From Paenibacillus pasadenensis DSM 19293 (GTDB lineage Bacteria; Bacillota; Bacilli; Paenibacillales; Paenibacillaceae), in contig NZ_KE383848.1 of assembly GCF_000422485.1 (NCBI RefSeq), positions 320,053 to 384,052 of the forward strand: a DNA stretch of 64,000 bases, written 5' to 3'. Each line of letters opens with the position of its first letter. The stretch's first letter is position 1. A model generated the notes under the pieces. The model ran no database searches and was not told the origin of the DNA. It worked only from the letters and a program-made list of their open reading frames with translations. Shown one piece after another: positions 58,812 to 64,000 of the stretch. The position numbers and the translations under genes were made by a program.

Positions 58812-60557
58812 CTAGCGGCGGCGCGCGGCAGCCTCGGGCGCGCGCCGCTCGGGAGCGAATACGTCCAGCAGCAGGCCCGCTGCCGCAGGATCGGCGCCTT
58901 CCCAGGCGGCGGCGAAGCGGATCCGGTGAGAGACGCCGGCGATGTCGTACGGCCGGGCCAGATGCTGGCGCGGCGAGCCGAGGATCAGCGTATGGAGGCG
59001 GACGCCTCTGCGCTGGGCCAGCGTCGCCAGCCGCTCGCGGTACGGGGGCGTCACCTCGCCGACGCCGTCGGTGAGCAGGACGAAGTCGGCGGCGGCGAAG
59101 CCGCGCGCGCCTTGCACGAGCTCGATGCCGCGCGCGATCGGCGCGTCGAAGTTCGTGCCGCCGCCGTAGGCGAGCCGCGAGAGCTCGTAGAATTTATCCC
59201 AGTCGGGGCGCTGATGATGCAGGCGATGCTCCAGCACCTCGCCCTTGGCGCCGAACAGCAGCAGCGTGAAATCGCGCCGCTCGCCGAGCGTGAAGGCGGC
59301 GAACGCCGCCGTGAACGCCTGCGCGAGCCGGAGCTTGGCCCCGCGCATCGAGTGGGAGGTGTCGACCATGCAGATGACCGGTCCGCGCTGCGGCTCCTCC
59401 TCGCGTCCCTCGGGCGCGTAGGTGAGCAGCTTGCGGTCGAGCCAGCGCATGAGGAAGTACGGCTCGTAGTCGGGGTCGGCGAGCAGGCTCGCTTCGGACG
59501 GCAGCATGCGGGCGATGTCGCCCGACAGCTCGAGGCCGCCGCGCGCCTCGGGAGCGCGGCGGGACGCGGCCTGCTTGCGCGCGGCCTTGAACGCATGCAG
59601 CTGGCGTCCGACCTCCTCGAGGAAGGCGAGCAGCTCCTTGTGGCCGCGCAGCCGCTCGACCCACAGGGCGTACTGCTCGTACGTCTGGCGGCGGAGCCGG
59701 CCGAGCTCGCTGCCCCAGCGCCGGTTCGCCAGCCGCTGGCTCGCCTGCAGCAGCGCGTGGATGCCGCCGCTGTCCGCCTCCTCGCGGCTCAGCGAGCCGC
59801 GCAGCGAATCGGCCAGCCAGCCGCCGAGCTCGTCCTCGAGCCGCTGCATCGCCGCCGCCTCCCGGGCGGTGACGCGCGCGAGCCGCCGCTCCTGCTGGCC
59901 GAGCTCCTGCTCGGCCTTGGCGAGCTTGGCGCGATGCTTGTCGCGGCGCACGAAGTCGGTGCGCATCGCCTCGCGCAGCTCCTCGACGCGGCGGCGCAGC
60001 GCGGCCAGCTCCTCGAGGTCGAGCGGCCGCGCGTCCAACGCGCGCTGCTTGTCCTCGGCGGCGCTTTTGCCCTGCTGCAGCCGGTAGCCGACGAGCTGCA
60101 GCTGCTGCAGCTGCTTGTCCGTCAGCCGCTCGCGCAGCTCTCCGGACGCCTCCTCGCCCCCGGAGCCCTTTTCCTGCGGGCCGGCGCCGGCGATCGGCCG
60201 TTTTTCGCGCTCGCGCTTGCGGGCTTCCTCCTCATACGATTCCGTCAGCCACATGAGCGCCTTGAGCGCGGTCTTGAACGAAGCGTTGACCTCGTGCACG
60301 GTGCGCGGATGGATCTCGCGGTAGTAGTGCTGGCGGCGCAGGGCGGCCAGCATCCAGCGATGGAACGGATCGCCGCCGGCCGGATGCTCGAAGGCGGGAT
60401 CGGGCAGGTAGAAGCTCATGAAGAAGTCGGCGAACAGCTCCAGGTCGAACCACGGCACCTGCCGCTCGGCTTCCCGCATCCACTCGCGCGCGGTGCGGGA
60501 GGAGCGGACGAAGCCGTCGAACTGGTAGCGGTCGACGCGCGCGCAGCGGATGAGCAT
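58812..60557 (-). CDS. VWA-domain protein, ViaA-like partner of the RavA-like ATPase
   Basis: The 581-residue protein has an N-terminal helical region, a long charged coiled-coil middle (about 125-330) and a C-terminal von Willebrand A domain. The MIDAS motif is DTSHS in ICMVDTSHSMRGAKLRLAQA, with later metal-site residues in AYGGGTNFDAP and VLLTDGVGEV. This layout is that of E. coli ViaA, but longer. The start follows AAGGAGG at ATG 60557 (MLIRCARVDRYQFDGFV). It lies downstream of the AAA gene on the same strand. Confidence 0.85.
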   Translation of the reverse strand: MLIRCARVDRYQFDGFVRSSRTAREWMREAERQVPWFDLELFADFFMSFYLPDPAFEHPAGGDPFHRWMLAALRRQHYYREIHPRTVHEVNASFKTALKALMWLTESYEEEARKREREKRPIAGAGPQEKGSGGEEASGELRERLTDKQLQQLQLVGYRLQQGKSAAEDKQRALDARPLDLEELAALRRRVEELREAMRTDFVRRDKHRAKLAKAEQELGQQERRLARVTAREAAAMQRLEDELGGWLADSLRGSLSREEADSGGIHALLQASQRLANRRWGSELGRLRRQTYEQYALWVERLRGHKELLAFLEEVGRQLHAFKAARKQAASRRAPEARGGLELSGDIARMLPSEASLLADPDYEPYFLMRWLDRKLLTYAPEGREEEPQRGPVICMVDTSHSMRGAKLRLAQAFTAAFAAFTLGERRDFTLLLFGAKGEVLEHRLHHQRPDWDKFYELSRLAYGGGTNFDAPIARGIELVQGARGFAAADFVLLTDGVGEVTPPYRERLATLAQRRGVRLHTLILGSPRQHLARPYDIAGVSHRIRFAAAWEGADPAAAGLLLDVFAPERRAPEAAARRR

Positions 60558-60711
60558 GCGGATTCCTCCTTGTCGGTCGGACGGGTGGTCGGGCAGGCGG
60601 CAAGCGGACCGGCGTTCGGTCGCGCACGCGGACGGTCGGTACACGGGCGGTCGGTACACGAGCGGCCGGGCGGTCGGGCCGGCATGGCGCGCTGCAGCGC
60701 GGGCCCACGCG

Positions 60712-62013
60712 CTACAGCGTATAGTCGTAGGCGATGCCCGGGATGTCCTTGTCGAACAGGCTGCGGTAAAGGCCCTGCACCTGCTGCAGCAGCTTCTCGC
60801 CCTGGATGCGCAGCCGCGTGAAGCGGACGGCGTATTCGTCCGCATGGAGGACGAACACCGACTGCGCGGCGATCCATTCGGGGAGCTGCTTCTCCCGCTC
60901 CTGCCAAGCGGTCAGCCGGCCCTGCAGCGAGCGGGCGGCGTCCTCGAGCTCGGCGCGGGCTTCGTCCAGCTGGCCCTTGAGCCGCTCCGACTGGCCCGCG
61001 CCGAGCGAGCCGCCGACCTCCTTGCGGAACTGGAAGCCGCTCAGCTCGTCCTCCTTGTCCAGCCAGCGGCGCAGCGTCTCGCGGTAGGACGGGAGCGGCA
61101 GCTCCTTTTCCAGCTCCTTGGCGAGCAGCTCCTGCCAGGCTTCCGCGAACAGGCCGCGCAGCTCCTCCAGGTCCTCGGGAAAGTCCCACAGCAGATGCGG
61201 CGTCAGCACCGTATCCCAAACGCTGACCTCGTCGCGGCCGTGGATCGCCGCGCTGATCTGCCAGGTGCGGCCGATGCGGCGCCAGCGGCGGTCGGAGAGC
61301 ACGTATTCCTTTTCCTCGAGCAGCGTCTTGAGCCGGAACAGCAGGACGAGCACCGGCTCCGGCAGGCGCGCCTCGCGGGCGCGCTCCTGCACCTGCTTCA
61401 GCACGGCGGGATCGAGCAGCGCCGGCGGGGGGCTGTCGGGAGCCTGGAACATGCGCTCGAAGCTCGCGATCTGCTGCAGGTAGCGCGTCTCGTAGCGGAA
61501 CAGGAAGCGGTCGTACAGCGCGGCCAGCCCTTCCTGCTCCTCGGGCAGCTCGTTGGAGGCGGCGATCAGCGTCAGCAGCGGCACCGGCTGCGCCTCCGCG
61601 CCGTTGTGGAAGCGGCGCTCGTTGAGCAGCGTGAGCAGGGAGTTCAGGATGGCGCTGCTCGCCTTGAAGATCTCGTCGAGGAAGGCGACCTCCGCGTCCG
61701 GCAGGTATCCCCGCGTCTGGCGGATGTAGCGGTCCTGCTTGAGCTGCTGGAGCGACACGGGGCCGAACAGCTCGTCCGGCGAGGTGAAGCGGGTCAGCAG
61801 GTAGTCGAAGCTGCGGCTCGTGCCGAGCAGCGCGGCGGCGGCGCGGGCGAGCTGCGATTTGGCGGAGCCGGGAGGCCCGACGAGCAGCAGGCTTTCGCCG
61901 CTCATCATGGCCAGCAGCAGGACGCGGATCAGCTCCTCGCGTTCCTGGAAGCGGTTCTCCAGATGGTGCATCGCTTCGCGCAGCTTGTTGGTCAAGGCGA
62001 TCGTTGAGGTCAT
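60712..62013 (-). CDS. MoxR-family AAA+ ATPase, RavA-like
   Basis: The 433-residue ATPase has Walker A LLVGPPGSAKSQLARAAAAL, Walker B VAFLDEIFKASSAILNSLLT, the sensor-1 region LLTLIAASNELPEE and arginine finger area LYDRFLFRYETRYLQ. The C-terminal half has helical LARA/triple-helical-like segments as in RavA. MoxR ATPases work with VWA proteins as chaperone-like remodelling machines; E. coli RavA-ViaA acts on respiratory complexes. AAGGAGG is 12 nt upstream of ATG 62013. Confidence 0.9.
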   Translation of the reverse strand: MTSTIALTNKLREAMHHLENRFQEREELIRVLLLAMMSGESLLLVGPPGSAKSQLARAAAALLGTSRSFDYLLTRFTSPDELFGPVSLQQLKQDRYIRQTRGYLPDAEVAFLDEIFKASSAILNSLLTLLNERRFHNGAEAQPVPLLTLIAASNELPEEQEGLAALYDRFLFRYETRYLQQIASFERMFQAPDSPPPALLDPAVLKQVQERAREARLPEPVLVLLFRLKTLLEEKEYVLSDRRWRRIGRTWQISAAIHGRDEVSVWDTVLTPHLLWDFPEDLEELRGLFAEAWQELLAKELEKELPLPSYRETLRRWLDKEDELSGFQFRKEVGGSLGAGQSERLKGQLDEARAELEDAARSLQGRLTAWQEREKQLPEWIAAQSVFVLHADEYAVRFTRLRIQGEKLLQQVQGLYRSLFDKDIPGIAYDYTL

Positions 62014-62277
62014 GGCGGCGGAAGGCCTCCTTCACGGCGATGTTTCCGCGCATATGCGGTGCTTCCATTGTACCAAACCGCCGGGCTCCGCACGAATGGG
62101 CCGGGGGAAGGGGAGCGGCGCCGCCGCGAAGCGCTTGATCCGCGCGCTGCCGTCGCCGCCCGGTCCGCACAATGGGCGCGGCGCCGCAGCTGCCGGTTCA
62201 TGGACGATCGCCGATGTGATAAGCTGGAGGAAGCAACGATTACGCCGGCCTGGAGCCGGCACGGAGGGGGAAGCCGC

Positions 62278-62781
62278 ATGAGAATCGGACTCGTGTCCGA
62301 CACGCATCTGAGCGGGGCGGCGGCAAAGCTGCCGGATGAGCTCGTGCGGGGCCTGCAGGGAGTCGAGCTGATCCTGCACGCGGGAGACTGGACGCATGAG
62401 CGGGCGGTCTTGCTGCTGGAGCGGATTGCGCCGGTGGACGGCGTCGCCGGCAACAACGACGGACCGGAGCTGGCGCGGCGCTTCGGCCGCAAGCGGCTGC
62501 TGGAGCTGGGCGGCTGCCGGATCGGCATCGTGCACGGCGACATCGGCTGGGGGCGCTGGACGGAGCAAAAGGCGCTTTCCAGCTTCGAGGAGGAGCGGCC
62601 CGACCTGATTCTTTTCGGCCACTCGCATACGCCGTACCGCAAGCAGCACGGCCCGTCGCTGCTGTTCAATCCGGGCTCGCCGCTGCAGAAGCGCCGCCAG
62701 CCGCGCTATTCGTTCGGCCTGCTCGACATCGAGGGCGGACGGCTGCGCGCGGAGCATGTGTATTACGACGATCGGAGCTGA
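62278..62781 (+). CDS. YfcE/MJ0936-type metallophosphoesterase
   Basis: The 167-residue phosphodiesterase has all two-metal motifs: VSDTHLSG (DxH), LHAGDWTHE (GD), GVAGNNDGPE (GNND), GIVHGDIGWG and LFGHSHTPYRK (GHSH). Upstream GGAGGGGGAAG is a strong ribosome binding site for ATG 62278. The substrate of YfcE enzymes in vivo is unclear; the position next to rph/xdp seen in other Bacillota is not visible here. Confidence 0.93.
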   Translation: MRIGLVSDTHLSGAAAKLPDELVRGLQGVELILHAGDWTHERAVLLLERIAPVDGVAGNNDGPELARRFGRKRLLELGGCRIGIVHGDIGWGRWTEQKALSSFEEERPDLILFGHSHTPYRKQHGPSLLFNPGSPLQKRRQPRYSFGLLDIEGGRLRAEHVYYDDRS

Positions 62782-62941
62782 GCGGAGAGGCCGACGGGCG
62801 TAAAGCAGGCGAGGAGTCGAGCGGAATATCGGAGGAGAGGGAGCTGGGGAGAGGCGGGCGGGCAGGCACATGCCCGCCCGCCGCGTCATATCCTAGGGAA
62901 AGACGCCGGGCATGCAGACCCGCCTCATGGGAGGATTTCCA

Positions 62942-63835
62942 ATGATCATTCCGAATTTTCCGAACGACCTGCTCGAGGAGCATCTGCGCTGGCACCATGC
63001 CAACCATGTCAGCGACAACGACAATCCCCCGATCGGCTGGGGCGACCGCTTCCTGAACTTCCACCGCCAGTACATCCGCAAGGTGCTGAGCTGGTATCAA
63101 TCCCAGGGCTACGACATGAGCCTCGTCCAGCCTTGGACGTCCGTGCCGCAAGGCATCCGCATGAGCCGTTGCTACGACCAGAACGCGGAACGCAGAATTC
63201 TGCAGCAGCCGCAATCGTTCGCGACGGCCGACGATCTGGGCCGCTTCATCGAGCGGCTCCATGCCTGCATGCACGACGCCGGCTCCGACGTGCTGAACGA
63301 GCCGCTGCTGCAGGATCTCGACACCGCTCCCCGCTCGACGTATTTCTACAACATCCATGGCATGATCGACAACTGGTACTCCAATTGGGAAAGGCTCCAG
63401 GGCGGCGGCCAGACGCAGCCGCCCTGGGGCGGGGGCGGGGGAGCGCCGTTTCCGGGAGGCGCCCCCGGTGGCTTTCCGGGCGGATTTCCCGGAGGCTTTC
63501 CCGGCATCGGCCCGTTCGGCGGCCGGCCTGGGCTGTCCGGCTTCGGCGGTCCTGTGCCGGGGCAGGGAGCGGCGTTCCCGCTCCCTGCCGGCGCCGGCGG
63601 AGCGGCCGCTGCGGCCGCCGGCCCGAGCGGCAGCGTGAACGCCGTGCCGGAGAAGCCGGCCGGCGGCCGCTCGCGCAAGGCGGCGGCGGGCGGCGCGCGC
63701 AAGGCCGCGAAGGGCGGCGCTCGGCGGCCGGCGCGGGGCTCCGCCCGCAAGGCGGCGCCGGGCTCGGCGCGCAAATCCGCGCGCGCCGGGCGCTCCGGCG
63801 CGCTGAAGCCGAAGCGCCGCGGCCGCCGGCGTTGA
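62942..63835 (+). CDS. Tyrosinase-like di-copper domain with Gly/Pro linker and histone-H1-like tail
   Basis: The 297-residue protein has three parts. Residues 1-152 resemble a short tyrosinase/hemocyanin core: a His cluster (14, 18, 19, 22), FLNFHRQYIRKVLSW (His41, like the CuA HRxY motif), RLHACMHD (His107, His111, like CuB HxxxH) and YNIHGMIDNWYSNWE (His139). Residues about 155-230 are Gly/Pro/Phe-rich with GGFPGGFPGGFPG. Residues about 240-297 are Lys/Arg/Ala-rich (KAAAGGARKAAKGGARRPAR), like histone H1 or bacterial HctB tails. Start at ATG 62942 follows GGGAGG. No signal peptide. Copper binding and DNA or RNA binding by the tail are inference. Confidence 0.7.
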   Translation: MIIPNFPNDLLEEHLRWHHANHVSDNDNPPIGWGDRFLNFHRQYIRKVLSWYQSQGYDMSLVQPWTSVPQGIRMSRCYDQNAERRILQQPQSFATADDLGRFIERLHACMHDAGSDVLNEPLLQDLDTAPRSTYFYNIHGMIDNWYSNWERLQGGGQTQPPWGGGGGAPFPGGAPGGFPGGFPGGFPGIGPFGGRPGLSGFGGPVPGQGAAFPLPAGAGGAAAAAAGPSGSVNAVPEKPAGGRSRKAAAGGARKAAKGGARRPARGSARKAAPGSARKSARAGRSGALKPKRRGRRR

Positions 63836-63937
63836 GGGAGAGGTGCCGGCGGCGGCCGTCGCTGCGCGCGGTGCTGCGGCCGCCGCGCCGCGTGCAGCGG
63901 GCTGGCGTGCCGCGCCGGTTCGGCGCCAATGCGGCAG

Positions 63938-63993
63938 AAGCCAAACGGAAGGAAGGCGAGCTTGCTCGTCTTTCGTTCCGTTTGGCTTCTTTA
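63938..63993 (+). terminator. Terminator after the tyrosinase-like gene
   Basis: AAGCCAAACGGAA (63938-63950) pairs with TTCCGTTTGGCTT (63976-63988), with an inner CGAG/CTCG stem; CTTTAT follows. Confidence 0.75.
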
Positions 63994-64000
63994 TGTTGCG

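Follow-up and report, generated by a model that had tools for sequence, protein, structure and literature searches.

In the 64,000-nucleotide stretch of the Paenibacillus pasadenensis DSM 19293 genome analysed here (contig NZ_KE383848.1, positions 320,053 to 384,052; hereafter the window), an open frame lies exactly at positions 62942-63835 of the + strand and encodes a protein of 297 amino acids. The initial annotation described it as a tyrosinase-like domain fused to a collagen-like linker and a histone-H1-like tail, a new arrangement that might be a copper oxidase anchored to nucleic acid or a spore-coat cross-linker. We propose that the product of the gene is a putative spore-coat oxidase built on a minimal type-3 copper domain, a reading that we regard as fairly likely. 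The features of the locus are compiled in Table 1.

Table 1. Features of the 62942-63835 gene and its flanks (positions in the window; rows refer to the family alignment)
Feature	Position	Strand	Basis or remark
-35 element GCACA, fits sigma-K KCACM	62866..62870	+	AC at 17 nt in A-type loci
-10 element CATATCCTA, fits sigma-K CATANNNTA	62887..62895	+	CATANNNT[A/G] in A-type loci
Ribosome-binding site GGGAGG	62929..62934	+	Sequence; 7 nt upstream of ATG
Minimal type-3 copper domain (predicted), residues 1-156	62942..63409	+	
His14, expected CuA ligand 1	62981..62983	+	Kept in 61/61 rows
His18, expected CuA ligand 2	62993..62995	+	Kept in 61/61 rows
His41, expected CuA ligand 3	63062..63064	+	Kept in 61/61 rows
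His107, expected CuB ligand 1	63260..63262	+	Kept in 60/61 rows
His111, expected CuB ligand 2	63272..63274	+	Kept in 61/61 rows
His139, expected CuB ligand 3	63356..63358	+	Kept in 61/61 rows
Gly/Pro-rich linker, residues 157-231, predicted disordered	63410..63634	+	pLDDT per ten residues 44-54 from residue 161; not G-X-Y collagen
Tyr-free tail rich in Lys/Arg/Ala, residues 232-297, predicted disordered	63635..63832	+	pLDDT, composition
Terminator-like hairpin 3' of the gene	63951..63974	+	One seen vs 0.7 mean in shuffles; weak

The mean predicted local distance difference test score (pLDDT) per ten residues is 82-97 for residues 1-150, 67 for residues 151-160 and 44-59 from residue 161 onwards. 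The domain, short as had been noted (~156 amino acids), is slightly acidic with a charge of about -6, and linker plus tail are strongly basic (about +23). A signal peptide was not detected; the domain begins at residue 3, and the best 12-residue hydropathy within the first 50 residues is 0.34. The GFPG-rich spacer (GGFPGGFPGGFP at residues 176-187) and the Lys/Arg/Ala end with its basic character (15 Arg, 8 Lys and 17 Ala in the last 66 residues) are real, but neither of the names given to them could be kept. We rejected the collagen label, as the longest G-X-Y run spans 4 triplets, and the histone label, as no histone family model in Pfam or NCBIfam matched the tail at E<=1, so that the likeness is one of composition only.

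The histidine motifs described before are all present, i.e. the first His cluster, H41-R42-Q43-Y44, H107-x3-H111 and IHGMIDNWY with H139. H14, H18, H41, H107, H111 and H139 are the only conserved histidines; for comparison, H19 is found in 21/61 and H22 in 19/61 rows. In type-3 copper proteins, according to PMC3658974, the third His of each copper site, CuA and CuB, is preceded by a Phe at a distance of four residues, and the third His of CuB is also followed by an Asp four residues on; F37, F135 and D143, each present in 61/61 rows, match this rule. Two copper ions would be held by H14/H18/H41 and H107/H111/H139. In profile searches the domain matched solved tyrosinases, catechol oxidases and haemocyanins. 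Its predicted fold is a bare four-helix copper bundle resembling the copper core of insect phenoloxidases, and comparison of the model with solved structures left a wide gap between type-3 copper proteins and unrelated folds. On the strength of the conserved residues, the profile matches and the predicted fold, we have little doubt that this is a type-3 copper domain, as the initial annotation had suggested. An internal duplication relating the CuA half to the CuB half was not supported (hhalign P 0.054 over 6 columns).

The second line of evidence lies upstream of the gene. Positions 62866-62895 read GCACA-N16-CATATCCTA, preceded by a T where the consensus has G; PMC3416734 gives the Bacillus subtilis sigma-K consensus as KCACM, 16 nt, GCATANNNTA. 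Relatives in the Bacillales fall into two types, A, to which the 62942-63835 gene with its H-x-C-x-H at CuB belongs, and B (~155 amino acids). A-type genes share GCATANNNT[A/G] upstream, with AC at a constant distance. The -10 sequence CATANNNT[A/G] occurs in 59/63 A-type loci, namely 47/51 (L061 and L067 being counted as A-type) and all 12 found later. The strict form CATANNNTA was seen in 28/49 loci versus 0.6 in shuffles; with the ending T[A/G], which was picked after inspecting the data, the figures are 46/49 and 1.45. AC stands exactly 17 nt upstream of the -10 in 40/47 of the first loci and in 45/63 overall, and at none of 31 other positions tested in the 47 loci was it found more than three times. 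Of the 12 late A-type loci, which were not thinned for similarity, 5 have AC at exactly this distance and 6 have it one position off, while 1 has no AC. After removal of similar upstream regions, AC was retained in 31/38 loci with a -10, while the 16-nt spacers average 34% identity. Among 783 other open reading frames in the same loci, for which start codons were assigned crudely, 43 had a -10 and 6 both elements; four of these 6 belong to two neighbour families (among the Cys-rich, LSM-like and manganese catalase families treated below). It has to be noted that 14 of the 84 loci escaped the first gene-finding pattern, of which 13 were looked at later (12 A-type, 1 B-type) and L084 is only a fragment, and that dropping identical upstream regions left 59 of 70 genes. 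A sigma-70 promoter was not found in 62700-64000. The upstream sequence matches sigma-K promoters, and expression late in the mother cell is predicted with high confidence, though slightly less than we place in the domain assignment.

In P. pasadenensis itself, sigK was seen as two partial matches, C6:157084-157425 (model positions 3-117, one stop) and C6:211885-212244 (model positions 109-227), ~54 kb apart as if split by a skin-like element; a similar ~54 kb pair exists in genome G001. Where A-type genes have the sigma-K motif, the B-type loci L080, L086, L087 and L075 show a palindrome ~20-35 nt before the start codon: TACAGCTGTA in L080 and L087, TATAGCTGTA in L086 and TATAGCTATA in L075. 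We take it to resemble the TACAnnTGTA box of CopY/BlaI-type repressors, a likeness that suggests putative copper control of B-type genes.

The gene is present in 19/59 related genomes. A scan of 84,980 species, which covered one genome per species with one peptide pattern and so gives a lower bound, yielded at least 65 loci in Paenibacillus, Cohnella, Thermobacillus, Neobacillus, Priestia, Bacillus sp. and Paenibacillaceae (L084 being a 26-residue match only); named database matches add Metabacillus, Cytobacillus, Ectobacillus, Ammoniphilus and Xylanibacillus. A third search, with 138 proteins of which 120 were listed, reached P0107-P0138 at 30-43% identity. Of these 32 proteins, the only one with a named source comes from a Rhizobiales metagenome bin. 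All start right at the domain, and what follows it differs: some have stretches rich in Lys and Glu, some end in proline-rich sequence, some have a PPC domain (PF04151, from precomputed annotation in four; P0125 is under the cut-off), and some have nothing further. In P0111-P0116 the CuB motif is HNNFLH, longer by one residue. A look for plasmid relatives of this wider family gave no match for P0136. Of the B-type proteins, 52/54 lack a tail of at least 20 residues. The arrangement is not unique to the 62942-63835 gene; judged from these sequences, the domain defines a family in which the C-terminal parts can be exchanged. When its distribution was set against a sporulation marker within the class, only 3/398 genomes were positive, a number too small for a comparison, one of them through just a 68-position match in a 689-amino-acid frame.

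Is the basic tail translated at all? In other species the orthologues continue, without a change of frame, into a comparable tail, and differences within it, counted by codon position in three species pairs (34/33/59, 17/9/41 and 9/6/24), peak at position 3; both observations argue that the tail of the 62942-63835 frame is indeed translated. In P0003, from a 5,226-base contig, the domain is identical and the tail changes frame after the G-run behind PPWGGGG, which is probably an error of sequencing or assembly. The linkers of the orthologues P0005, P0007, P0008 and P0009 have Met-rich PGM repeats in place of GFPG, and such Met runs could bind copper(I).

With respect to known type-3 copper proteins, the CuA spacing of the domain is H14-x3-H18 followed by H41 23 residues further (22 residues between H18 and H41). 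PMC3658974 describes alpha-subclass CuA sites as H1(n)-H2(8)-H3, with eight residues between ligands 2 and 3, and a differing beta subclass. In the mini family, at least 90% of the rows have Gly at position 32, nine residues ahead of H41, and the signal peptide of the alpha subclass is missing, as in the beta subclass; the beta-subclass H-x3-H at CuA recurs as H14-x3-H18 and corresponds to HWHWH in the solved phenoloxidases 3hhs and 8jib. The profile alignment pairs HxxWH with HWHWH of Limulus and GeeFLefHrd with GELFYYMHQQ, with a score below zero for this stretch. The hhalign score of the CuA half versus phenoloxidase, 12.7, is within the controls (200 column shuffles, mean 9.6, maximum 18.4), and no further phenoloxidase models appeared among the Pfam matches at E<=1 of 19 members. 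The label "beta-like" therefore refers to spacing, predicted fold and the missing signal peptide, and is not meant as a statement on descent. Arthropod prophenoloxidases (Manduca sexta 3hhs, Aedes PPO6 8jib, crustacean proPOb 3wky) are eukaryotic proteins of 650-656 residues with further domains; they share 16-20% sequence identity with the mini domain, and the CuA similarity is not significant. The tyrosinases of Bacillus (Priestia) megaterium and other bacterial alpha-type enzymes have ~290 residues and the H1(n)-H2(8)-H3 spacing that the mini family lacks. PvdP tyrosinase of Pseudomonas aeruginosa (6rrr, 6rrq, 6eys; 448-478 residues) is titled a periplasmic pyoverdine maturation protein, and Limulus haemocyanin (1oxy, 1lla) is an oxygen carrier of 628 residues. 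As to bacterial beta-subclass proteins, PMC3658974 was the sole match among open-licence works.

We found no conserved operon; the commonest directly upstream gene is the same in 15/57 loci. Among the 30 largest neighbour clusters, three besides the family itself have the -10 in more than half of their members (search window -160 to +90 around a crudely assigned start). These are a Cys-rich gene (L027:7319-7811 and homologues, cluster 8; 18/20 with CATANNNT[A/G] near the start), which is the co-oriented upstream gene of the 15 loci and has no Pfam or NCBIfam match, an LSM-like gene (8/12; LSM score under the Pfam cut-off) and a manganese catalase (7/11). In Bacillus subtilis, the spore coat contains a manganese catalase, CotJC. 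By eye, the vicinity of the gene in the window further contains a VWA-type protein (58812-60845) and a MoxR-type ATPase (60712-62013) on the - strand; a YfcE-type phosphodiesterase lies inside 62059-62781 on the + strand.

The following course of events may be envisaged. The protein would be synthesized late in the mother cell under sigma-K and, having no signal peptide, be laid from there onto the spore; a location in the coat is probable. The copper pair would oxidise catechols and other phenols, or tyrosines of proteins, to quinones, which would cross-link or pigment the coat, lysines including those of the tail adding to them. Such phenol oxidation with cross-linking or pigment formation is putative, and we lean towards it. 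The basic tail would most likely anchor the protein electrostatically in the coat and provide lysines for quinone attack; being free of tyrosine, it is hardly a phenolic substrate in its own right. Insect cuticle is tanned by phenoloxidases, and the proposed coat chemistry resembles this process. A copper phenol oxidase is also known from the coat of Bacillus spores, CotA laccase; the role would be shared, but CotA is a multicopper oxidase of unrelated fold. Among the open-licence titles listed by our searches, none dealt with a type-3 copper protein of spore coats.

Several observations speak against this reading or narrow it. Foldseek alone gave no match at E<=0.001 (best 0.89). The score against PF00264 (Tyrosinase), the sole Pfam match of the full protein at E<=1, is 17.2 bits with a cut-off of 22.6, and 20.4 for the domain alone; the relatives P0026 and P0011 score over the cut-off. 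A PF00264 search of the P. pasadenensis genome found nothing at E<=0.001, the 62942-63835 gene included. When the profile search of the PDB was run in a narrower form, the copper proteins were twice outranked by a designed TPR protein (E 0.0091 and 9.9e-5). An Asn behind the first CuB His has a role in monophenol activity; since this residue is Ala in the P. pasadenensis protein and Asn in only 8/61 rows, monophenol activity of the domain is doubtful. The upstream motif is missing from 4/51 A-type loci, and AC-N17-CATANNNTR, found once in the 64-kb window versus 0.33 expected, is not beyond chance there. B-type genes lack the motif (0/8, nor was it seen in 4 further B-type loci), so the domain as such is not tied to sporulation. 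Of the neighbours, few have AC at 17 nt (Cys-rich 3/20, LSM-like 4/12, manganese catalase 0/11), so by sequence they fit a mother-cell -10 only. Finally, the tail was basic in 54 of the 84 A-type proteins, near-neutral in 16 (those named are from Cohnella) and shorter than 20 residues in 14; in this count 28 duplicates were removed, seven proteins could not be split and incomplete database proteins were retained. The short-tailed A-types L008, L010, L028, L037, L039, L041 and L047 still bear the sigma-K-type motif. Given this variation and the retained motif, the tail would tune rather than define the function.

Against this background, it is very improbable that a histone-like tail ties the oxidase to DNA or RNA. 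The charge of about +23 and the Lys/Arg/Ala/Gly composition are what one would look for in such a tether, but the tail matches no histone family, its sequence is not conserved, and it is missing or near-neutral in 30/84 A-type proteins. The promoter, moreover, is of the mother-cell type, and sigma-K is active in the mother cell; mother-cell DNA is discarded. The alternative use proposed by the initial annotation, a spore-coat cross-linker with a basic tail, gains support from the conserved sequence matching sigma-K promoters. That the domain could be a four-helix protein resembling type-3 copper proteins by chance is hardly credible: the Foldseek values and the CuA half, which did no better than shuffled controls against phenoloxidase, would fit this, but profile search, fold comparison and the six His with flanking Phe and Asp agree as three independent lines.

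Two further explanations accept the fold and the coat. The protein could bind copper or oxygen without oxidising phenols, as a haemocyanin-like buffer or copper store; we consider this unlikely, because the bare bundle, judging from its length and the model, lacks the domains that shield haemocyanin sites and would be expected to have an open site. Still less probable is a type-3 fold with another metal such as zinc, or a degenerate site in a merely structural coat part. Sequence does not reveal the identity of the metal, and PMC3658974 refers to one member of the family that is believed to work with zinc; on the other hand, all six ligands are kept in divergent members at 30-43% identity, except in the truncated row of P0089, which argues against a relic.

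A coat oxidase of the type-3 copper family is hence the reading we prefer. It invites a wider speculation, to which we attach little probability: bacteria may own beta-type type-3 proteins, a bare 150-residue bundle and possible ancestor of arthropod phenoloxidases and haemocyanins, of which the Paenibacillaceae version would tan the coat via quinones, with its lysine-bearing tail as the point of attachment. If true, coat tanning with a built-in tail would be the bacterial equivalent of the hardening of insect cuticle. Bacterial proteins that combine the beta-type spacing at CuA with a predicted fold like that of phenoloxidases would offer a minimal scaffold for copper-oxygen chemistry, and the gene described here is a concrete candidate for oxidative cross-linking in spore coats.
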